DNA of 35,174 nt, taken from positions 1 through 35,174 of the forward strand of contig PLTJ01000385.1 in NCBI GenBank assembly GCA_003164455.1, read 5' to 3'. Below are positions 9,613 through 34,673 of the stretch, one piece after another. Both the position numbers and the translations under genes were made by a program. A model generated the notes under the pieces. That model was not told the DNA's origin. It made no database searches and was given only the letters and a program-made list of their open reading frames with translations. Each line of letters starts with the position of its first letter. Position 1 is the first letter of the stretch. The DNA is from Acetobacteraceae bacterium. GTDB taxonomy: Bacteria; Pseudomonadota; Alphaproteobacteria; Acetobacterales; Acetobacteraceae.

Positions 9613-10281
9613 ATGTTTACGCTTGGAAAAATGCCCCAGCAAATCAGCCCGGACCTGGTTGCGCTGCTTGAGCGTGTCGAGGTGGCGACTACGGGTCATG
9701 TTCTCCATTCCGGGTTCGTCGACAGGGCCATTTGTGCCGTACTGCCGGGCAAGCGAGTCGCCGGCACGGCCGTGACGCTACGTATTCCGCACGCGGACTC
9801 AACGCTGCTGCACTACATCACCAAGCTGGTACGGCCCGGCGATATCGTGGTGATCGACCGCTGCGGCGATGACCGTCATGCCTGTTGGGGTGGCGTCATC
9901 ACCAACGCCATGAAGCTGGCGGGGGTCAAAGCCGGAGTCATCGATGGTCCGGCGACCGACATCGGCGAGATCGTCCGGGTTGATATGCCCGTCTGGTGCC
10001 GCGGCCCGTCGCCGATCACCACCAAGCTGCTCGCCGCCGAGGGCCAGTTCAACGTGCCGGTGACCGTTGGCGGCCAGGTGATCCATCCCGGCGATGCCGT
10101 TCTTTGCGACGAAAGCGGCGTGGTGGTGATGCATCCCGAGGACGCCAAAGCAGTCGCCGAACGGGCCATCGGCATGCAGGAAGCCGAGGTGGTGCTGCTC
10201 AACCGCTTGCGGGCGGGCGAGAAGTTGCCCGACATCAGCGGAGCGACTACCATGGTCGAAGCAGACGCCAAATGGATTTAG
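9613..10281 (+). CDS. RraA-family protein (HMG/CHA aldolase-like / regulator of RNase E activity A superfamily)
   Basis: GTAVTLRIPHADSTLLHYITKLVRPGDIVVIDRCGDDRHACWGGVITNAMKLAGVKAGVIDGPATDIGEI; PGDAVLCDESGVVVMHPEDA. Confidence 0.88.
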   Translation: MFTLGKMPQQISPDLVALLERVEVATTGHVLHSGFVDRAICAVLPGKRVAGTAVTLRIPHADSTLLHYITKLVRPGDIVVIDRCGDDRHACWGGVITNAMKLAGVKAGVIDGPATDIGEIVRVDMPVWCRGPSPITTKLLAAEGQFNVPVTVGGQVIHPGDAVLCDESGVVVMHPEDAKAVAERAIGMQEAEVVLLNRLRAGEKLPDISGATTMVEADAKWI

Positions 10282-10419
10282 CGGTTTCCGCCGCACTTCG
10301 AACCGCCGCTCATTGGCCCACCGGCCCGTTTCGGTTGTGCCGCCTGTCACGGGGCTTTGTGCTCAAAAGCGCCGTGACAGGAAGCGGGCGCCAATGGTTT
10401 GGCGGCTATCATTTTCCCT

Positions 10420-12578: not shown

Positions 12579-12859
12579 TGGGAGAGCCTTACCGGAACGG
12601 GGCCCCGTGGAAGAGCGTTGGAATCGTCCTCCTGGCGCTCGTTTTGCCTTCCGCCGGTCATGTTTTCCTGGGGAAAGCGCGCCGCGGGCTGATTTTGCTG
12701 TTTTGGATAATCGCCTTCGGTCTTCTGACCCAGAAGCTTGCGAACCCAGGCGTGTCCTTCTGGGGGCAATATGCCGGCGGTTTGGCCGTCTGGGCCTTAT
12801 CGGTTGTTGACGCAGCCGGACTTGCCAGAATCAGGTTCAATCCTCCACCGAAGATCTGA
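12578..12859 (+). CDS. small membrane protein (TM2/DUF6677-like)
   Basis: TGATG overlap with the APC permease stop; hydrophobic PSAGHVFLGKARRGLILLFWIIAFG resembles the G-x-GHFYLGRxxRG motif of TM2-like proteins. Confidence 0.55.
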   Translation: MGEPYRNGAPWKSVGIVLLALVLPSAGHVFLGKARRGLILLFWIIAFGLLTQKLANPGVSFWGQYAGGLAVWALSVVDAAGLARIRFNPPPKI

Positions 12860-12880
12860 TCCACGGCGGAGGATTGAACC
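12834..12880. terminator. long hairpin between convergent genes
   Basis: GGTTCAATCCTCC (12834-12846) and GGAGGATTGAACC (12868-12880) are perfect 13-bp inverted repeats; an extra CCG/CGG pairing inside. Lies between stops at 12859(+) and 12889(-). Confidence 0.55.
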
Positions 12881-23449: not shown

Positions 23450-25627
23450 ATGACGTCAGACTGGACTAATCAGGAGAAGCCCGTGGCCGCAATTGCTAAG
23501 GAATTCCAGCTCGGGTCCGATTTCCCCAGGATTGATTACCCGACATGGCAAGAGGAGGTTGAAGCTAAGCTCAGGGGTGCGCCATTCGCCAAGCGCATGA
23601 TCTCCCACACCTATGAAGGGATCGACCTGCAGCCGATCTATACCGAAGAGATATATGCGACGGCGCACGATCCGGCCGGGCTGCCGGGCTATCCGCCGTT
23701 TCTGCGGGGTGCGCAGCCCTTGGGCAATATGCTGGCCGGCTGGGACATCCGCCAGGAGCATGCGCACCCCGATCAGGCGGTTGCCAATGCGCAGATTGCT
23801 GAGGACCTGAATGGCGGCGTGACCTCGATCGACCTGCGGCTCGATGGCGCGGCGTCACAGGGCCTGGATGCCGATGACCCCCGTGCCTCCGATCTGGCCG
23901 GCAGGGACGGCGTCAGCGTATCCTGCGTTGCCGACATCGAACGTCTCGCCCAGGGAGTGAGGCTTGATGTCGCCGGGTTTTACCTCGATCCGGGGGCGGC
24001 CTTCCTGCCGCTCGCGAGTCTCTATGTCGTCGCCGCGAAGAACGCCGGTGTGCCAGTCGGCGATTTGCTCGGCGGCTTCAACGCCGATCCGCTGAAGGCG
24101 CTGGTGCGCGACGGCGCCTTGCCGGTGCCGCTGGATACCGCACTCGCCGAGATGGCCGACCTGGCTGCGTGGACCGCGCACAATGCGCCGCACATGACCT
24201 CGGTCGAGGTCTCGACCTCGCCATACCACAATGCGGGCGCTACCGCCGTCGCCGACGTCGCCTTCGCGGTCGGTACCGGGCTCGCCTATCTCCGGGTCCT
24301 GACGGGTGCCGGGCTGGATGTGGAAACCGCGGCGCGGCAGATCACCTTCAGCATGGCCCTGGGCTGCCGGTTCTACCTGGCGATTGCCAAGATCCGCGCG
24401 GTCCGCACGTTGTGGGCAGACGTGATCGCGGCCAGCGGCGGTAGCGTCGAGGCCCGGAAGATGCGCCTGCGCGTCTCAACCGGCCGTCGCGTACTGACCA
24501 CGCGCAACCAGTCGCTCAACATCCTGCGCAACACCGTCGCCTGCTATGCCGGCGCGGTGGCGGGGGCGGACATCATCACCACCACCCCGTTCGACGCCCC
24601 GACCGGCCTGCCGAGCGAGGTAAGCCGCCGCAACGCACGCAACACGCAGCTTATCCTCGCCGAGGAATGCCACCTTTCGCAGGTGATCGACCCGGCCGGC
24701 GGCGCCTGGTACATCGAGTGGTACACCAACGAGATCGCTAGGCGGGCATGGTCGGTGCTGCAACAGGTCGAGGCACAGGGCGGCATGATCAAGGCCGTGC
24801 TCAGCGGCTGGGTAACGGAGCAAATCACGCCCACGGAAGCGGCGCGTGAGAAGGATATCGCCGTCCGCAAGGTCGCCGTCACCGGCGTCAGCGAGCATCC
24901 GATCCTGACCGAGAACCGTACCGAGCAGGAACGGGCCGCCTACGACCAACTCACCATGGCGGCGTCCCGGCGGCTGTCCGACTGGCGCCGTCAGCACCAG
25001 CAAGGTCGCGAGGTTGCACTCGATGCATTAGGCGCCGTGTCCGCGATCGGCAGCGGCGTGGCCACCGCGGCGGCGATCGTCGCGGCGGAGGCCGGGGCCA
25101 CACTGGGTGAGATCGCGAGGCGCCTGAGCCCCGCAGGCGGCGAGCCGGCGGTGATGGCGCCGCTTGCGGTGCATCCGTACGACGCCGCGTTCGAAGAGCT
25201 GCGCGATGCCGCCGAGGCGTTCGCGAGCAAGCACGGCAACCGCCCACGCGTGTATCTCGCTGGTGTCGGCAGCATCGCCGAGCAGGTCGCGCGCAAGAAT
25301 TATTCACGCAACTTCTTTGAAGCCGGCGGTTTCGAGGTGCTGGCACAGGAGGCGAGGTTCGATGTCGACAAAGCGGCGTCGGGGTTCGCCGCCAGTGGGG
25401 CAAAGATCGCGGTAATCTGTTCGACCGACAAGCAATATGCGAACGTGGTGGGCGAACTGGCGCCGAAGCTCAAGGCCGCCGGGGCGCGCACCGTGGTGCT
25501 CGCCGGCCACCCGGGTCAATCGGAGACCGCTTACCGGGCAGCCGGTGTCGACCGCTTCATCTTCGTCCGATGCGATGTCCTCGAGGTGTTGTGGTCGCTG
25601 TTGCGTGCGGAGGACGTGCAGTCATGA
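23450..25627 (+). CDS. mutA: methylmalonyl-CoA mutase small (beta) subunit
   Basis: ORF paired with the large subunit by ATGA overlap; MCM fold motifs ([78 protein letters not shown]) but no DxHxxG B12 motif in the C-terminal domain. Start 23450 or GTG 23483. Confidence 0.93.
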
Positions 25628-27816
25628 ACAAGATCCCCAATTTCGCCGACATCCCCTTCGCCGCGGCCGCGAACGCGGCTGACCTCGAACAATGGCGCAG
25701 CGACGCCGAGCACAGCGCGCTCAAGCCGCTGTCCGATCTGACCTTGCAGACCGCGGAGGGCATTGGGGTCAAGCCGCTCTATACGGCCGCCGACCGCGCT
25801 GGCCTGGAGCATCTCGACAGCTTTCCCGGCTTCGCGCCGTTTGTCCGCGGCCCGTATGCCTCGATGTATGTGACGCGGCCGTGGACGGTCCGCCAGTATG
25901 CCGGCTTCTCGACCGCCGAGGCCTCGAACGCCTTCTACAAAAAGAACATGGCGGCCGGCCAGAAAGGTCTCAGCGTTGCCTTCGATCTGCCGACGCATCG
26001 CGGCTATGACAGCGACAATGCCCGCGTACTGGGTGATGTCGGCATGGCCGGCGTGGCAATCGACAGCATTCTGGACATGCGAATCCTGTTCGACGGCCTT
26101 CCGCTCGGCCAGATCAGCGTGTCGATGACAATGAACGGCGCGGTGCTGCCGATCCTGGCGATGTACGTCATCGCCGCGGAGGAGCAGGGCGTCGAGCAGA
26201 AGAAGCTGTCAGGGACCATTCAGAACGACATCCTGAAGGAGTTCATGGTCCGCAACACGTTCATCTATCCGCCGACGCCCAGCATGCGTATCGTCGGTGA
26301 CATCTTCAGCTACACTGCCCAAAACATGCCGTCGTTCAACAGCATCAGTATCTCCGGATATCACATGCAGGAGGCTGGGGCGACCGCCGACCTGGAGCTT
26401 GGCTACACGCTTGCGGACGGGTTGGAATACCTGCGTACGGGCGTCGGCACCGGCATGTCGGTGGACGACTTCGCGCCAAGGCTGTCGTTCTTCTGGTCGA
26501 TCAGCGAGAACGTGATGATGGAGACCGCCAAACTGCGGGCGGCCCGCATGCTGTGGGCCAAAATCGTCAAGATGTTCGACCCCAAGAACCCCAAGAGCCT
26601 GTCGCTGCGCACCCACAGCCAGACCAGCGGCTGGAGCCTGACGGCGCAGGACGTGTACAACAACGTAACCCGCACCTGCATCGAAGCGATGGCCGCCACC
26701 CAAGGTCAGACGCAGAGCCTGCACACGAACTCGCTGGACGAGGCACTCGGGCTGCCGACGGAGTTCTCTGCCAGCATCGCGCGCAACACGCAGTTGTTCC
26801 TGCAGGAGGAGACCGACACCGACAACGTGATCGATCCCTGGGGCGGCAGCTATTACGTGGAGGCGCTGACCAACGAACTGGCGCGCAAGGCCTGGGCGCA
26901 CATTGTCGAATGTGAAGAGCACGGCGGCATGACCAAGGCGATCGAGGCGGGCCTGCCCAAAATGCGCATCGCCGACGCCGCCGCGCGCACCCAGGCGCTG
27001 ATCGACGTTGGCCGGCAGACCATCGTTGGGCTCAACAAATACCAGCCCATGACGGACGACCCGATCAACGTGCTGAAGATCGACAACACGGCAGTGCGCG
27101 AGTCGCAGATCAAGCGCTTGCAGGATCTGCGGGCGCAACGCAACCAGGTGGATGTCGATGCGGCCCTGGACGCGCTGACCGAGTGCGCTCGCGGTGGCGA
27201 GGGCAATCTGCTCGATCTCTCGATCAAGGCCGCGCGGCTGAAGGCGACCGTGGGCGAAATCAGCTTTGCGCTGGAGAAAGTCTATGGCCGGTTCCAACCG
27301 ACACCACAGCTCGCCGTCGGTGTCTATGCCAAGCAGGTTGGCGACACGATGACCGCCATCAAGCGCGCGCGTGACAGGGTCGAGGCGTTCGTGAAGGCCG
27401 AAGGGCGGCGGCCGCGCATCCTGATCGCCAAACTGGGACAGGATGGGCACGATCGCGGCCAGCAGGTGGTGGCCTCGGCATTTGCCGACATCGGCTTCGA
27501 CGTGGATGTCGGCCCTCTGTTCCAGACCCCCGAGGAAGCCGCTCAGGAAGCCGCGGACAACGACGTGCATGTGGTCGGCGCCAGTTCCCTGGCCGCCGGG
27601 CATCTCACGCTGATCCCGCAGCTCAAGCGGGCGCTGGTGGGACTTGGGCGCGACGACATTCTGGTCATTGCCGGTGGCGTCATCCCGCCGCAGGACTACG
27701 ACGAACTTTACGCCTACGGCACTGATGCCATTTTCGGACCCGGGACGGTGATCTCGGACTCGGCGATCAAGATCCTCGACGTGCTGCTCGGGCGGATCGC
27801 CGGCAAAGCGGCCTGA
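25624..27816 (+). CDS. mutB: methylmalonyl-CoA mutase large (alpha) subunit
   Basis: [77 protein letters not shown]12 motif [28 protein letters not shown]. Confidence 0.97.
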
Positions 27817-27840
27817 TCAGCACACGGCACGGCGACGTCG

Positions 27841-28899
27841 ATGAGCGGTAATTGGGCGCCTGGGCGCGACTACGGGGCAGGTCGGCCGTTGGCGCGTATG
27901 ACGGTGGACGACTACCTGCAGGGCGTGCTCGCGCGCAATCGCGGCGTGCTCGCGCGGGCCATCACCCTGATCGAGTCTTCGCGCCCCGACCAGCAGGAGA
28001 TGGCGCGCGAACTGGTGAATCGGATTTTGCCGCACGCCGGAAAATCGATCAGGATTGGCCTGACCGGCGTACCCGGTGCAGGCAAGAGCGCATTGATCGA
28101 GGCCTTCGGCGGCTTTCTTACGACGCGCGATCACCGGGTGGCGGTGCTGTCGATCGATCCGTCCAGCGCACGGTCCGGCGGCAGCCTGCTGGGCGACAAG
28201 ACGCGGATGATCAAGCTCAGTTGCGATCCCAACGCCTTCATCCGGCCTTCGCCTAGCGGCATGGTGCTGGGCGGGGTGGCACGGCAGACGCGCGAGACCG
28301 TGCTGTTGTGCGAGGCAGCGGGCTACGACGTCGTCATGATCGAGACGGTGGGGGTTGGCCAATCGGAAGCGACGGTCGCCGAGATGACCGACTTCCTGAT
28401 GGTGCTGATGCTGGCCGGAGCCGGCGACGAGTTGCAAGGCATCAAGCGCGGCCTGCTGGAGCTGGCCGACCTGATCGCCATCACCAAAGCGGATGGCAAC
28501 AACGTCATGCCGGCAAGACAGGCGGCATCCAAGTACGCCTACGCCATGCAGCTGCTGTCCGATCCGGACCACGGCAAGGCCCCGGTGGTCACGTGCAGCG
28601 CGGTGGAAGGCACTGGGCTGGCTGAGATATGGCAGATCATTTCCGACCGCACCGCCGAACGCGTGCGCACCGGTTATCTGCGCCAACGGCGCAGTGAGCA
28701 GAACGCCAACTGGATGTGGTCGCTCGTCGATCAGCAGATCCACGATATGCTGCACCGGCAGCCGGAGGTCAGCGCGATCGCGGAAGGCGTCGCCGGGCAG
28801 GTGCGAGACGGGACGTTGTCCGCGGTGATGGCCTCCGAACAGATCATCGCCGCGCTATTTGCCAGTGCGGTTCCGGATGTCGGCAAAGCCAAGCCATGA
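27841..28899 (+). CDS. meaB: MeaB/ArgK-type G3E GTPase, methylmalonyl-CoA mutase chaperone
   Basis: RIGLTGVPGAGKSALIEAFG, VLSIDPSSARSGGSLLGDKTRM, IETVGVGQSEATVAEMTDFLMVLMLAGAGDELQGIKRGLLELADLIAITKADG. Confidence 0.96.
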   Translation: MSGNWAPGRDYGAGRPLARMTVDDYLQGVLARNRGVLARAITLIESSRPDQQEMARELVNRILPHAGKSIRIGLTGVPGAGKSALIEAFGGFLTTRDHRVAVLSIDPSSARSGGSLLGDKTRMIKLSCDPNAFIRPSPSGMVLGGVARQTRETVLLCEAAGYDVVMIETVGVGQSEATVAEMTDFLMVLMLAGAGDELQGIKRGLLELADLIAITKADGNNVMPARQAASKYAYAMQLLSDPDHGKAPVVTCSAVEGTGLAEIWQIISDRTAERVRTGYLRQRRSEQNANWMWSLVDQQIHDMLHRQPEVSAIAEGVAGQVRDGTLSAVMASEQIIAALFASAVPDVGKAKP

Positions 28900-28953
28900 G
28901 TCAGCTTCTCCTCCCAGAGCTGACGGCCAAAAGAGCTGTGGCGCTGAGTTGCC

Positions 28954-29691
28954 GTGCCGTCTGACTTGTTCCTGGTACGGCACCACGCGCAGTTGGATTC
29001 GACGAACGAGGAAGCCAAACGGCTGGCTGCAAGCGGATGCGCGCACGGCACGGTGATCTGGGCGGACGAGCAGACCGCCGGACATGGGCGATACAACCGG
29101 CCCTGGCATAGCCCGCCGGGCAATCTGTTCGTGTCGGTCGTGCTGCGTCCCTCGGCGCGGGCATCGCGGGGAGCCGAGTTGGGCTTTCTTGCTGCCGTGG
29201 TTGTGGCCGAGTGTGTCGTCGGGTTGTTGCCGCGTCCCGATCCCGTCGCGCTGAAATGGCCCAATGATGTGCAGATCGACGGCGCCAAGGTGGCGGGAAT
29301 CCTTCCAGAGGCACTGAGCGGCGGCGAAAGACTGACGTGGGCCGTGCTCGGTGTTGGCCTCAACCTGGCGGATGCCCCCACGGATACGCCCTATCGTGCA
29401 ACCAGCCTGCGCGCGCATGGTGCGACGGTCACGCCGGAAGGCGGATTGCAGGCGTTCCTGATGCTTCTCGGGCAATGGCTGCAACGTTGGGAGGGCGCCG
29501 GGTTCGCTCCGGTACGGACCGCCTGGCTGGCGCGCGCGCAGGGGCTTGGACAGGAAGTGACCGTGACGCTGGGCAACCGTCAGGAACGGGGCATCTTCCG
29601 CGATCTCGACGCCGACGGAGCGATGATCCTGGAGACCGGTAACGGCCCCCGGCGGATCACCGCCGGGGATGTCGCATTTGGCGCGGCCTGA
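28954..29691 (+). CDS. birA: biotin--[acetyl-CoA-carboxylase] ligase (short form lacking an HTH domain)
   Basis: DSTNEEAKRLAASGCAHGTVIWADEQTAGHGRYNRPWHSPPGNLFVSVVLRP, LKWPNDVQIDGAKVAGIL, GVGLNLADAP. Confidence 0.94.
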   Translation: MPSDLFLVRHHAQLDSTNEEAKRLAASGCAHGTVIWADEQTAGHGRYNRPWHSPPGNLFVSVVLRPSARASRGAELGFLAAVVVAECVVGLLPRPDPVALKWPNDVQIDGAKVAGILPEALSGGERLTWAVLGVGLNLADAPTDTPYRATSLRAHGATVTPEGGLQAFLMLLGQWLQRWEGAGFAPVRTAWLARAQGLGQEVTVTLGNRQERGIFRDLDADGAMILETGNGPRRITAGDVAFGAA

Positions 29692-29699
29692 CGGCGGCG

Positions 29700-29721
29700 A
29701 AGGCGCGACGAGCGCGGCCTT
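29700..29721. terminator. putative bidirectional hairpin between convergent birA and decarboxylase beta genes
   Basis: AAGGCGCG-acgag-CGCGgCCTT stem with one bulged G, filling the 31-nt gap between the two stop codons. Confidence 0.4.
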
Positions 29722-29722
29722 C

Positions 29723-30847
29723 CTACTGCAACAGCGCCAGCATGATGCCGCCGGACAGCGCCGTGCCGAACACGCCGGCCAGGTTCGGCCCCATCGCATG
29801 ATAGATCAGGAAGTTTTCGCGATCGTCCTGCAGGGCCACCATGTGCGCCACACGGGCGGCGATCGGAACTGAGGCAATTCCGGCCGATCCCAGCAGCGGA
29901 TTGATCTTTTCCTTGAGGAACAGGTTCATCACTTTCGCTCCGAGCACGCCCGACCCGGTGCCGAATATGAAGGCCACCAGGCCCAGCAGGATGATCTCGA
30001 GCGTAGTGCCGGTCAGGAACCGGTCGGCTGACATGGTGGACCCGATGGCGATGGTGAGCATCACGATGACGACGTTCATCACCTCGTTCGCGGCGGTCTT
30101 GGCGAGGCGCTCGGTCACCAGCACTTCCTTGAACAGGTTGCCCAACATCAGCATGGTGATCAGCGGCGCCACCGGCGGCAGCAGCAGGTTGACGACGATG
30201 CCGATGATGATCGGGAAGGCGATACGTTCCACCCGGGTCACGACGCGCATCTGTTTCATGCGGATCATGCGCTCCCGCTTGGTCGTCAGCAGCTTCATGA
30301 CGGGCGGCTGGATCAGCGGCATCAGCGCCATGTAGGAATAGGCGGCCACCGATATCTGCGGCAGCAGGTGCGGCGCCAGTTTCATCGTCATGAAGATCGC
30401 CATCGGCCCGTCGGCGCCACCGATGATGCCGATCGCGCCGGCCTCGTAAATGGTGAAGCCAAGCAGTTTGGCGCCGATCAGGGCGACAAATATGCCGAGA
30501 TGTGCTGCTGCCCCCAGGATGACCAGCTTGGGGTTGGCGATCATCGGCCCGAAGTCCGTCATCGCGCCGACGCCAAAGAAGATCAGCGGCGGCAGGATCA
30601 GCAACTGGACGCCTTCATAGGCGTAGTGAAACAGCCCGCCCGGCAACACCAGGTCGGCACCGGGAACGTTCGATATGATGCAGGAGAAGCCGATCCCCAC
30701 CAACAGCAACGGTTCATATTTCTTGATGACTGCAAGCAGGATCATCGCGATGCCGATCGCGATCATCACGACGTTGCCCCACCAGATCTGCGCGAGGCCG
30801 GTCTGCGCACCCATCGCGGCAACGAACGACATCATTTGGTCGAACAT
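29723..30847 (-). CDS. Na+-translocating decarboxylase beta subunit (MmdB/OadB/GcdB family)
   Basis: PLLLVGIGFSCIISNVPG, IFFGVGAMTDFGPMIANP, GAIGIIGGADGPMAIFM, YSYMALMPLIQPPVM, GSAGIASVPIAARVAH, AMGPNLAGVFGTALSGG. Confidence 0.96.
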   Translation of the reverse strand: MFDQMMSFVAAMGAQTGLAQIWWGNVVMIAIGIAMILLAVIKKYEPLLLVGIGFSCIISNVPGADLVLPGGLFHYAYEGVQLLILPPLIFFGVGAMTDFGPMIANPKLVILGAAAHLGIFVALIGAKLLGFTIYEAGAIGIIGGADGPMAIFMTMKLAPHLLPQISVAAYSYMALMPLIQPPVMKLLTTKRERMIRMKQMRVVTRVERIAFPIIIGIVVNLLLPPVAPLITMLMLGNLFKEVLVTERLAKTAANEVMNVVIVMLTIAIGSTMSADRFLTGTTLEIILLGLVAFIFGTGSGVLGAKVMNLFLKEKINPLLGSAGIASVPIAARVAHMVALQDDRENFLIYHAMGPNLAGVFGTALSGGIMLALLQ

Positions 30848-30882
30848 GATCGAGTAGCCCTTTCCCTGCGTGCCGACGGCGG

Positions 30883-31041
30883 TCAGTGACCGCGACGCAT
30901 GCTCTTCTCGTCCAGTTTGCCGAGGCGATTCAGGCGGGGAAGCAGGCTAAGAATCAGGCCGATCCCTGAAATCATCACCATGCTGAGAAAAAAGTCGATC
31001 ACGCTGAGCAGTACCGAAAACGTGACGGTATCTTTTTCCAT
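30883..31041 (-). CDS. 52-aa single-TM protein inside the decarboxylase operon
   Basis: MEKDTVTFSVLLSVIDFFLSMVMISGIGLILSLLPRLNRLGKLDEKSMRRGH; GCAGGAGATTGCA upstream supplies an SD; lies between biotin carrier and beta subunit genes on the same strand. Confidence 0.6.
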   Translation of the reverse strand: MEKDTVTFSVLLSVIDFFLSMVMISGIGLILSLLPRLNRLGKLDEKSMRRGH

Positions 31042-31164
31042 TGCAATCTCCTGCAAGAGGCGGTGTCGGTGGAAGCGCCGGCAGTCCGTGAAGGGGATAT
31101 CGTAGGCGATGGATGACCGCGTGATGTGTTGGCCAGGCAACGCAGGCGAATCAGGGGCGGCAGC

Positions 31165-31557
31165 TCATTCCACGGTCATCAGCACCTGCCCGGTTTCCAC
31201 GCTCTCGGCCACATTGACCGCGATACTTTTGACCGTGCCGGCAACCTTCGACATCACCTCGGTCTTCATCTTCATCGCCTCGATGGTCGCGACCTTGTCG
31301 TTCACGGCGACGTTCTGGCCGACCGCCACATCGATCGAGAATACCACCCCACCCAACGGGGCGACGATGGTACCGGCGCCTGCCTCCGCAGCCTGAGCCG
31401 CCACGGGGTGCGATGTCGGTGCGGCTGCCGCCGCGGGCGCGGCATGGACAACGGACACGGCAGGCACGAAGGCGGGAGCTGTGGCCGGTTGGTCAAGATC
31501 CTCGACCGCCACATCGTAACTGCGGCCATCCACCGTGATCCGGAAGTTCTTGATCAT
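31165..31557 (-). CDS. biotin carrier subunit (gamma; biotin/lipoyl attachment)
   Basis: Ala/Pro linker then biotinyl domain with EAMKMKTEV motif; 130 aa. Confidence 0.95.
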   Translation of the reverse strand: MIKNFRITVDGRSYDVAVEDLDQPATAPAFVPAVSVVHAAPAAAAAPTSHPVAAQAAEAGAGTIVAPLGGVVFSIDVAVGQNVAVNDKVATIEAMKMKTEVMSKVAGTVKSIAVNVAESVETGQVLMTVE

Positions 31558-31581
31558 AGCTTGATTCCTGAAGACTCTTCG

Positions 31582-31923
31582 TTAGCCGAGATTATGAGAG
31601 GTCTGGTGCATCCAGCGACCTTCGAGCGCCCAGACCTGAGGCGCGTTGCTGGTCTCGATGTGAACGATGCGATGGGCACCCAACATCGCGTGGACCGCCG
31701 CGGCGATCACAACGATGTCCTCGGGCGAAGGTGCCTCAGGGGCTGCTGGCTGGGCCAGGAGTGGTGCCGGTGCGGCGGCGGGTGCCGCCAGCGCGTTCCG
31801 GGGACCGCGGGAGCGGTGCTGAAACGCGGCAATGAGCCGCCACGCCAGGTACATCAGGCCAACGGTGATGACGATACCTGCCCAATTGTGCAACGGGCCG
31901 CTGCCGTGCATGATGTCATACAT
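31582..31923 (-). CDS. OadG/MmdD-like delta subunit
   Basis: Single N-terminal TM (NWAGIVITVGLMYLAWRLIAAF), Ala/Pro linker, SPEDIVVIAAAVHAMLGAHRIVHIE C-terminal module as in delta/gamma subunits. Confidence 0.8.
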   Translation of the reverse strand: MYDIMHGSGPLHNWAGIVITVGLMYLAWRLIAAFQHRSRGPRNALAAPAAAPAPLLAQPAAPEAPSPEDIVVIAAAVHAMLGAHRIVHIETSNAPQVWALEGRWMHQTSHNLG

Positions 31924-31950
31924 GGCGTGTTGCCGACCTGTCCTGGCGCG

Positions 31951-33504
31951 TCACAGCGGAATGTTCCCGTGCTTCTTCGGCGGCCGCATCTCGCGCTTGC
32001 CCCGCAGTTTGCGCAGTGCCAGCCCGATGGTCCAACGCGTTGCCGCGGGCTCGATGACGTCGGTTATGTAACCGGCACCCGCCGACAGGTAGGGCGAGGT
32101 GAACTCCGCACGGTAAGCCGCCGCCAGTTCGGCCACCCTGGCATGGTGATCCGGCGCTCCCTTCAGCTCCTTGCCGTGCAGAACGTTGACGGCCGCCTCG
32201 GCGCCCATGACCGCAATCTCTGCCGACGGCCAGGCGAAAACGAAATCAGCCCCCAGCTCCTGGTTGCACATCGCGACGTAGGAGCCGCCATACGCCTTGC
32301 GCAGAATGACCGTGATCTTTGGCACTGTCGCCGAGGCATACGCGAACAGAAGCTTGGCGCCATGGCGGATGATGCCGCCACGCTCCTGTTCGATACCCGG
32401 CAGGAAGCCGGGCACGTCGACCAGGGTGACCAGGCTGATGTTGAAGGCGTTACAAAAGCGGATGAAACGCGCAGCCTTGTCGGAAGCATCGATATCGAGC
32501 GCCCCGGCCCGCACCGCCGACTGGTTGGCGATCACACCAACCACCATGCCGTGGATACGCGCGAAGCCGACGATGATGTTCTCAGCGAAGCTGGCGTGGA
32601 CCTCAAGGAAGTCGCCGCCGTCAACCAGCCGCGTGATCACCGCGCGCACATCCATCGGCCGCATGTTGTCGTCCGGGATCAGCGCGTTCATTGTCTCGTC
32701 TGGGCTTTCGTCGATATCGGCGCTGAGCCGATGCGGCGGTTCCTCGGAGTTGTTTGTCGGCAGGAAGCTCAGCAGACGCTGTACGAGCTGGACGGCGTGC
32801 GCGTCGTTTTCGGCGAGAAAGTGCACGTTGCCGCTGACTGTGGCATGCATCACCGCGCCGCCAACCTCGTCCATGGTTGTCGTCTTGCCGGTCACCGCCT
32901 TGATAACCTCGGGGCCGGTAATGAACATCTGAGCGTGCGACTGCGTCATGATCACGAAGTCCATCAGGGCCGGCGAGTAGGCGGCCCCGCCGGCACAAGG
33001 CCCGCAGATCACCGCGATCTGGGGTACCACGCCGGACAGCAGCACATTCTGGTAGAACACCTCGGCGTAACCGGACAGTGCGTCCACCGCTTCCTGGATG
33101 CGCGCCCCTCCGGAATCGTTGAAGGCCACGATCGGCATACCGGTATGTGCCGCGGTTTGCATGGCGCGAACGATTTTCGATGCATGCATCTTGCCGAGCG
33201 TGCCGGCGGCGACCGTAAAGTCCTGGCTGAAGGCAGCAACCGCGCGACCGCCGACATAGCCCGTCCCGACTATGACGCCGTCCGCCGGTAGGTCTTTCTG
33301 GTGGGCGACGCCCGCCTGGCGGGCGCTGCGGATGTGCATGCCGATTTCCTGGAAGGTGCCTTCCTGGAACAGCGCGGCGAGGCGTTCACGCGCGGTCATG
33401 CGGCCCTGATTGTGGCGAGCGCGGGCCTTGTCCTCACCGCCACCAACGAAAATCCTGCCCCGTCGGTCACTCAGGTCTTTGAGGATCTTGGCATCCAGTG
33501 TCAT
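31951..33504 (-). CDS. mmdA: methylmalonyl-CoA decarboxylase/carboxyltransferase alpha subunit (MmdA/PccB family)
   Basis: ARARHNQGRMTARERLAALFQEGTFQEIG, FNDSGGARIQEAVDALSGYAEVF, CGPCAGGAAYSPALMDFVIMT, TLVDVPGFLPGIEQERGGIIRHGAKLLFAYASATVPKITVILRKAYGGSYVAM. Confidence 0.95.
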   Translation of the reverse strand: MTLDAKILKDLSDRRGRIFVGGGEDKARARHNQGRMTARERLAALFQEGTFQEIGMHIRSARQAGVAHQKDLPADGVIVGTGYVGGRAVAAFSQDFTVAAGTLGKMHASKIVRAMQTAAHTGMPIVAFNDSGGARIQEAVDALSGYAEVFYQNVLLSGVVPQIAVICGPCAGGAAYSPALMDFVIMTQSHAQMFITGPEVIKAVTGKTTTMDEVGGAVMHATVSGNVHFLAENDAHAVQLVQRLLSFLPTNNSEEPPHRLSADIDESPDETMNALIPDDNMRPMDVRAVITRLVDGGDFLEVHASFAENIIVGFARIHGMVVGVIANQSAVRAGALDIDASDKAARFIRFCNAFNISLVTLVDVPGFLPGIEQERGGIIRHGAKLLFAYASATVPKITVILRKAYGGSYVAMCNQELGADFVFAWPSAEIAVMGAEAAVNVLHGKELKGAPDHHARVAELAAAYRAEFTSPYLSAGAGYITDVIEPAATRWTIGLALRKLRGKREMRPPKKHGNIPL

Positions 33505-33543
33505 GGCAATTGATCCTTTGCTGTCAGGGTCGCGCAGGCCGGG

Positions 33544-33948
33544 TCAGATCTGCTGCAATTCCACCAGGCAGCCATTAAGGTCCTTCGGGTGAAGGAACAG
33601 CACCGGCATATCGTGTGCCCCGATCTTCGGCTCGCCGTTCCCCAGCACGCGCAACCCCTTGGCCTTGAGCGCGTCGCGGGCGGCGAGAATGTCGTTGACC
33701 TCATAGCAAAGGTGGTGGATGCCCCCGGCCGGGTTTCTCTCGAGAAAGGCCTTGATCGGGCTTTGGTCGCCCATCGGCAGCAACAGCTCAATCTTGGTGT
33801 TCGGCAGCTCGACGAACACCACGGTTACGCCATGCGCCGGCTGCGCCAGCGGCGCGGACACCTTCGCACCGAGAATGTCGCGATACACAGCGGTGGCTTT
33901 GTCCAGGTCGGGGACAGCGACGGCAACGTGATTCAGTCTTCCGATCAT
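33544..33948 (-). CDS. mce: methylmalonyl-CoA epimerase
   Basis: MIGRLNHVAVAVPDLDKATAVYRDILGAKVS...GGIHHLCYEVNDI...LFLHPKDLNGCLVELQQI - VOC/MCE fold motifs. Confidence 0.94.
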   Translation of the reverse strand: MIGRLNHVAVAVPDLDKATAVYRDILGAKVSAPLAQPAHGVTVVFVELPNTKIELLLPMGDQSPIKAFLERNPAGGIHHLCYEVNDILAARDALKAKGLRVLGNGEPKIGAHDMPVLFLHPKDLNGCLVELQQI

Positions 33949-34164
33949 GGGGGGCTCCTGTAAGCGGGGCTGGCTTAGGGCAGGAAAATGCGCCGGGGGC
34001 GGCAGTCATTGCGAATCAACAACGCAAGCGCTGCAAACATCGATCAGTGCGTGATGCGCGCATCGTGCACCGCGCCATCGTCGGCATCGACGAAGATCTT
34101 TTACTGTAACCCATTGTGCAGAGTAGATTTTTTGAAAAAACGGGAGTCCGCCAACGGATACAAC

Positions 34165-34524
34165 AGGTCCCCATGACCTGCCTAATTCCCAATTAGGCTA
34201 ACAGCTTTGTGATGATGGTCAACGGGCGGCTGGTTGGCATCCCCGCATGGCTGGCATCCCTCATTTCGGGATGCCGACTGGTCTGGGTGCGTTAGCACCC
34301 CGATGGGGGCAGCTAACCAATGATAGCCGACATGGTACAGTGTCGGTGTTTCATTCCGTGAGATGCCTCCGGCAAGCCGTTGAATGGATGGCCTTGTGGG
34401 TAGTGGCCTCTGTCGCGGTAGGGGCGCGGGGTGACCCGCGTCCCTACCGCGACAGAGGAGTGGCTGGACTACCCTGCCGTTCGCCGTTACAAGGGGCCGC
34501 TCTTCGGGGCGCCCTTATCTTTTT
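34165..34524 (+). ncRNA. candidate structured noncoding RNA (several consecutive hairpins ending in a terminator-like stem-loop)
   Basis: Hairpins read by eye: AGGTC/GACCT 34165-34179; GCCTAATT/AATTAGGC 34180-34198; GGCATCCC/GGGATGCC 34253-34275; GGGTGC/GCACCC 34285-34300, alternative to GTTAGC..CCCC/GGGG..GCTAAC 34291-34317; CCGACA/TGTCGG 34327-34346; 24-bp stem 34407-34458 with GTGA loop; terminator 34491-34524. Strand assigned from the T-tract. Confidence 0.4.
34491..34524 (+). terminator. putative Rho-independent terminator
   Basis: AAGGGGCCGCTCTTCGGGGCGCCCTT (stem with a bulge) followed by ATCTTTTT. Confidence 0.5.
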
Positions 34525-34598
34525 GGACTCCTGGTTGAGACTATACCGAGACTAAGGGTTTCCGGCCTAGCCAAAAAACCCAATAAAAACAAAAGATC

Positions 34599-34673
<75 letters not shown>

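Follow-up and report, generated by a model that had tools for sequence, protein, structure and literature searches.

What occupies the 650-base gap that separates a VOC-type gene (33544-33948, minus strand; Pfam match Glyoxalase_4) from tRNA-Thr(CGT) (34599-34673, plus strand) in this Acetobacteraceae genome? The window, that is, the whole 35,174-nucleotide stretch of DNA that was analysed, had been given an initial annotation from its letters and reading frames, and the array of stem-loops in this gap had been proposed to be an independently transcribed structured RNA. Our analysis suggests that 34136-34524 may encode an undescribed RNA, and the best single reading, to which we would give a probability of about 0.47, is an orphan, lineage-specific, stand-alone structured ncRNA gene on the plus strand that carries a palindrome acquired later. 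It is a sound candidate rather than a proven RNA, and we infer its transcription, its strand and its function from the DNA.

The stems crowd 34139-34516, in the middle of the gap, and the structured unit begins at about 34139 and not at 34165, where it had been placed at first, while the originally proposed end at 34524 is retained. A coding reading of 34136-34524 was rejected, since the two longest frames overlapping it have no match in Pfam or PHROG, in agreement with the first impression that the stretch holds no convincing CDS. The structure ends sharply at both borders, the fold z-scores of the flanks being -0.81 (34020-34140) and -0.86 (34516-34600). None of the covariance models of Rfam 15 fits the unit, in line with the earlier remark that no hallmarks of tmRNA, RNase P, 6S or SRP were recognised, and in that scan the tRNA alone reaches its gathering cut-off; the microRNA-type matches that appear at permissive thresholds are generic long hairpins far below their cut-offs and were discarded. 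No convincing sigma-70 promoter was found for the candidate RNA. The features of the locus are as follows.

34136-34524 (about 390 bases), plus strand: candidate structured ncRNA unit, a proposed transcript with predicted ends (fold z-score, unstructured flanks, no Rfam or coding family)
34139-34143 / 34484-34488, plus strand: possible closing helix, AACGG/CCGTT (pair probability 0.50 for an RNA that stops at the T-run)
34143-34149 / 34525-34531, plus strand: competing pairing, GGAGTCC/GGACTCC (0.93 if the RNA extends beyond the T-run)
34165-34179, plus strand: hairpin 1, AGGTC/GACCT (MFE fold)
34180-34198, plus strand: hairpin 2, GCCTAATT/AATTAGGC (MFE fold; pair probability 0.96)
34203-34252, plus strand: hairpin 3, a long irregular stem that may pair alternatively with 34269-34280 (MFE fold)
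34253-34275, plus strand: hairpin 4, GGCATCCC/GGGATGCC (MFE fold; the repeat at 34231-34243 competes for its 3' strand)
34281-34304, plus strand: hairpin 5, GTCTGGGTGC/GCACCCCGAT (MFE fold)
34305-34370, plus strand: hairpin 6, a long stem with internal loops (MFE fold; inner pairs 0.97-0.98)
34372-34397, plus strand: hairpin 7 (MFE fold; pair probability 0.91-0.95)
34398-34474, plus strand: hairpin 8, GGGTAGT/ACTACCC, with the palindrome inside its loop (MFE fold)
34402-34406 and 34459-34463, plus strand: left and right copies of the direct repeat AGTGG, abutting the palindrome on both sides
34407-34458, no strand: 52-bp palindrome with GTGA loop, probably inserted (copies in genus relatives; likeness to intron ends)
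34492-34524, plus strand: terminator-like stem with C(UUCG)G loop, then ATCTTTTT (MFE fold)
34599-34673, plus strand: tRNA-Thr(CGT), the downstream gene, outside the candidate unit (ARAGORN)

The proposed RNA would start near 34136 and end at the UUCG-capped terminator before tRNA-Thr, with about eight hairpins arranged around a weak closing helix, the 3' strand of which lies just ahead of the terminator-like stem. As described at the outset, this end consists of a bulged GC stem (34492-34502/34507-34516) followed by the T-run (34517-34524); the loop of the stem is C(UUCG)G. In the centre, two direct repeats (34231-34243 and 34248-34260) compete for a single partner, 34268-34280, and the energy gap between the two computed folds, 34253-34260/34268-34275 versus 34231-34242/34269-34280, is 1.6-1.7 kcal/mol for the full-length RNA and 6.8 kcal/mol for the isolated segment. 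By computation, then, the central part of the candidate RNA is predicted to be bistable, and 34203-34281 could switch between two pairings of nearly equal energy. As to function, a trans-acting RNA or an RNA-protein scaffold would be conceivable.

The density of hairpins noted in the initial annotation is borne out by the energies: 34130-34545 folds at -215.9 kcal/mol, compared with -162.1 ± 6.2 for shuffles (z = -8.74), and the tiles at 34301 (z = -9.7) and 34401 (z = -6.3) rank as the top two among the 350 tiles of the window. Much of this extreme z-score is supplied by the long hairpin of the palindrome, without which it is about -4 to -4.5. When the palindrome and one of its flanking repeats are removed, the resulting empty site (332 nt) has a folding energy of -148.8 kcal/mol, whereas its shuffles average -124.3 (z = -4.48; 0 of 300 reach it). 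It contains eight hairpins of at least 5 bp; among 112 window tiles of equal length the average is 2.3 and the highest count 6. A fold more stable than shuffles, as is generally expected of an ncRNA gene, is thus found both with the palindrome and without it. The terminator segment alone (34459-34525) is as stable as its shuffles (z about 0).

Folding leaves the strand unsettled, because the plus-strand excess of G-U pairs is that expected from shuffles and the energy difference between the strands is equalled in 19 of 150 shuffles. The minus strand of the empty site folds nearly as well (z = -3.1), and for 34305-34405 the z-score is -3.2 on the plus strand and -1.3 on the minus strand. G-U bias was accordingly rejected as evidence for the strand, being explained by composition.

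The most conspicuous hairpin appears to have a history of its own. Its stem (34407-34430/34435-34458) has 24 bp with 96% complementarity, a single G-T pair and the loop GTGA, just as had been read from the letters (a stem of about 24 bp with a GUGA loop and one G/U-compatible mismatch). The palindrome is copied in genus relatives, where the rest of 34136-34524 has no copies; an exact-pattern search found four palindromes, at several unrelated sites, in three of the seven genus genomes, and when 100 family genomes were sampled, the pattern occurred in none but the two that belong to the genus. On one strand, each of the four palindromes carries a tetraloop of GNRA type, GTGA or GTAA. One copy in genome G001 is intergenic and follows a frame identified from its translation as TraG/VirD4-like. 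Two copies in G001 (locus L003, about 56-104; locus L009, about 1498-1548) have common flanks, CGTCATCCTCAT and CTACGTTCGGGA, and their centres are reversed, TCAC versus GTGA, as if inverted in place. The 24-bp GUGA hairpin therefore probably did not belong to the original fold and is a dispersed palindrome in its own right. The mobile-element remnants that the initial annotation had offered as its main alternative are for this reason probably the right explanation of the hairpin, and they apply to that one hairpin; the proposal of an independent structured RNA loses it as its main exhibit and keeps the structure, the sharp borders and the terminator-like end.

How the palindrome came to lie here is suggested by its immediate surroundings. 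AGTGG stands directly on both sides of it, and the chance of such a 5-bp match is about 0.001. Deletion of the palindrome with one repeat restores GGGTAGT-GGCTGG-ACTACCC, a perfect 7-bp hairpin with a 6-nt loop (empty-site sequence GGGTAGTGGCTGGACTACCC). Because the palindrome sits in the loop of this 7-bp hairpin between the AGTGG repeats, the fold would seem to be the older of the two, and the palindrome was likely inserted later into the loop of hairpin 8; likely and not proven, because no direct repeat is evident at its other copies.

The origin of the palindrome may be sought in group II introns, the hallmarks of which are a domain V and a domain VI whose branch-point A is bulged, in most cases together with a reverse transcriptase. 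In its 3' arm and loop the palindrome is similar to the terminal part of domain VI, with blast matches in three loci (L004, L006 and L007, about 1501-1545), and in L006 a reverse-transcriptase-like frame is followed by a domain V-like hairpin and then by GTGCGGGGGGCGTGTGGTGACACGCGTCCCTACCGCGAT. At gathering score Rfam calls no intron in these loci, and the naming of domains V and VI therefore rests on our own reading. In the window palindrome the 5' arm complements the 3' arm almost throughout; the would-be branch-point A is therefore paired, and the palindrome is not a working domain VI. The genus palindromes in L003, L009 and L010 likewise combine a 3' arm and GNRA-type loop as in the putative intron ends with a perfectly complementary 5' arm. 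Judging from these arms, the genus palindromes might derive from group II intron ends as fold-back copies.

Relatives of the remaining unit were sought widely. With blastn at E up to 1, 34130-34405 gave only short, weak matches among the 398 genomes of the family, the best at 0.0018 across 36 nt. Covariance models had to be derived from the one sequence and are weak for that reason; no credible match came from samples of 250 genomes of the family, 338 of the order, 386 of the class and 399 of the phylum, or from 40 relatives searched with laxer filters. For two of these models, R1 (34160-34304) and R2 (34277-34404), the only other match, in G1060 (E = 0.017), spans ribosomal protein genes and was dismissed as chance, and the loci with palindrome or intron copies likewise gave nothing credible. 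Phage and E. coli collections held no relative and plasmids gave matches at chance level only, while neither translated-frame pattern scans for DNA relatives in the genome and viral contigs nor searches of viral contigs for exact 19-20-mers returned any. The position upstream of tRNA-Thr, to which the initial annotation had looked for homologues, is not conserved in the genus: the DNA upstream of the same tRNA in G002, G003 and G006 is unrelated to the unit.

The flanks match genus relatives (72-76% identity for the VOC gene, up to 99% for the tRNA region), which does not mark the contig as foreign in any obvious way. The VOC-gene and tRNA loci of G003 lie about 880 kb apart, and the junction between them is therefore particular to this lineage. 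In genome G000, contig C28 carries at 2560-2610 (L048, 1501-1551) a stretch of 51 bp that repeats the 3' part of tRNA-Thr(CGT) with 98% identity and adjoins a minus-strand gene reading like a tyrosine-type phage integrase; the tRNA thus appears to be an integration site. The unit would probably lie in acquired or rearranged DNA beside this site and have received the 52-bp palindrome at a later time, within the hairpin 8 loop.

The same setting lends itself to a reading at the level of DNA, in which mobile-element remnants, recombination sites and palindromes have gathered in a gap beside a tRNA integration site and the hairpins amount at most to cruciforms or plain terminators with no dedicated RNA. 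We regard this as a real possibility, since one hairpin is demonstrably a dispersed palindrome, the tRNA has its copy next to the integrase-like gene, the gap is rearranged relative to G003, both strands fold similarly and nothing is conserved; however, neither the genome nor the relatives contain copies of the remaining hairpins, and scattered remnants agree poorly with the sharp borders of the structure and its terminator-like end stem. The ncRNA gene is ranked ahead of it. It draws support from the lack of a CDS match, the fold excess, the sharp borders, the terminator-like end, the genus origin of both flanks, the separate distribution of the palindrome and the lack of a known family, and it has against it that no homologue, and hence no sign of selection, was found, that the minus strand is nearly equal, that no convincing promoter was seen and that the terminator segment resembles shuffles.

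The T-run ends 74 bases upstream of the tRNA on the same strand, and with two competing folds within 1.7 kcal/mol the unit could also be taken for a leader or attenuator, the 5' part of a pre-tRNA whose bistable centre or terminator sets the amount of tRNA-Thr(CGT). This we consider improbable: the terminator stem takes part in neither of the competing folds, and a required leader is unlikely because in the three relatives the same tRNA does without this upstream DNA.

Less probable still, and hardly to be expected, is an RNA partner of a lost or unassembled reverse-transcriptase or ribozyme system, be it retron msr-msd-like, a defence reverse-transcriptase RNA or a group II fragment. In that case the 7-bp GGAGTCC/GGACTCC pairing that encloses the array would correspond to a1/a2 and the long hairpin, with its likeness to domain VI, to the copied part; retron msr-msd RNAs do join an enclosing pairing to one very long hairpin. 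Such an RT-linked RNA is unlikely, given that no RVT_1 match occurs in the genome assembly, which is 80.7% complete, and the retron reading was rejected for want of an adjacent reverse transcriptase. Moreover, the Rfam group II and retron families do not score, and the long hairpin is a separate dispersed element. In circularly permuted group II RNAs domains 5 and 6 lie at the 5' end (PMC8637638). The likeness of our candidate to the ordinary or permuted form is limited to the 3' arm and GNRA-type loop of 34407-34458, but no domain V-like motif is visible and the branch-point A is paired, so that both forms were rejected, as was a CsrB-like titration RNA, the hairpin loops not being GGA loops.

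Among described systems, GOLLD and ROOL are large, hairpin-rich RNAs often found near tRNAs in phages and prophages, GOLLD often exceeding 800 (PMC12286853). Our candidate shares with these and with OLE its non-coding nature, many hairpins and a locus of its own, but it is shorter (about 330 nt without the palindrome), has no Rfam match and no homologues, and no phage genes were identified beside it. RNA candidates from intergenic screens have homologues to support them, and in many cases covariation as well (PMC6429828, PMC2864571); the locus is like them in being a long structured intergenic region without CDS, but it has neither. The palindrome recalls REP-like elements, being short, present at several extragenic sites of the genus and marked by GTAG near the stem base, but it differs in having only four copies in seven genus genomes and in its domain VI likeness. 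The candidate is a plausible addition to the broad kind of structured bacterial ncRNAs. That it represents a new class, a bistable RNA of about 330 nt that is rare, is spread by mobile DNA near tRNA genes and tolerates an intron-end-derived palindrome in a loop, seems to us rather unlikely. Should it be transcribed, it would add another member to the tail of rare bacterial RNA classes that have structure but no known relatives and are overlooked by homology-based screens. The palindrome, placed within a hairpin loop that already existed, would offer a modest natural experiment on the tolerance of such an RNA.

Three other parts of the window deserve mention. At 12838-12880, in its third most structured tile (z = -5.5), a strong palindrome (GGTTCAATCCTCCACCG...CGGCGGAGGATTGAACC) follows a frame ending near 12858 and looks like a bidirectional terminator. 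The intergenic tile at 10280-10405 is also strongly structured (z = -4.5) and contains inverted repeats nested in one another, for instance CCTGTCACGG...CCGTGACAGG. Finally, the genes of 23450-33948, which match methylmalonyl-CoA mutase, a sodium pump of the oxaloacetate-decarboxylase-beta type, a biotin carrier, a carboxyltransferase and the VOC family, are consistent with a methylmalonyl-CoA decarboxylase gene group.
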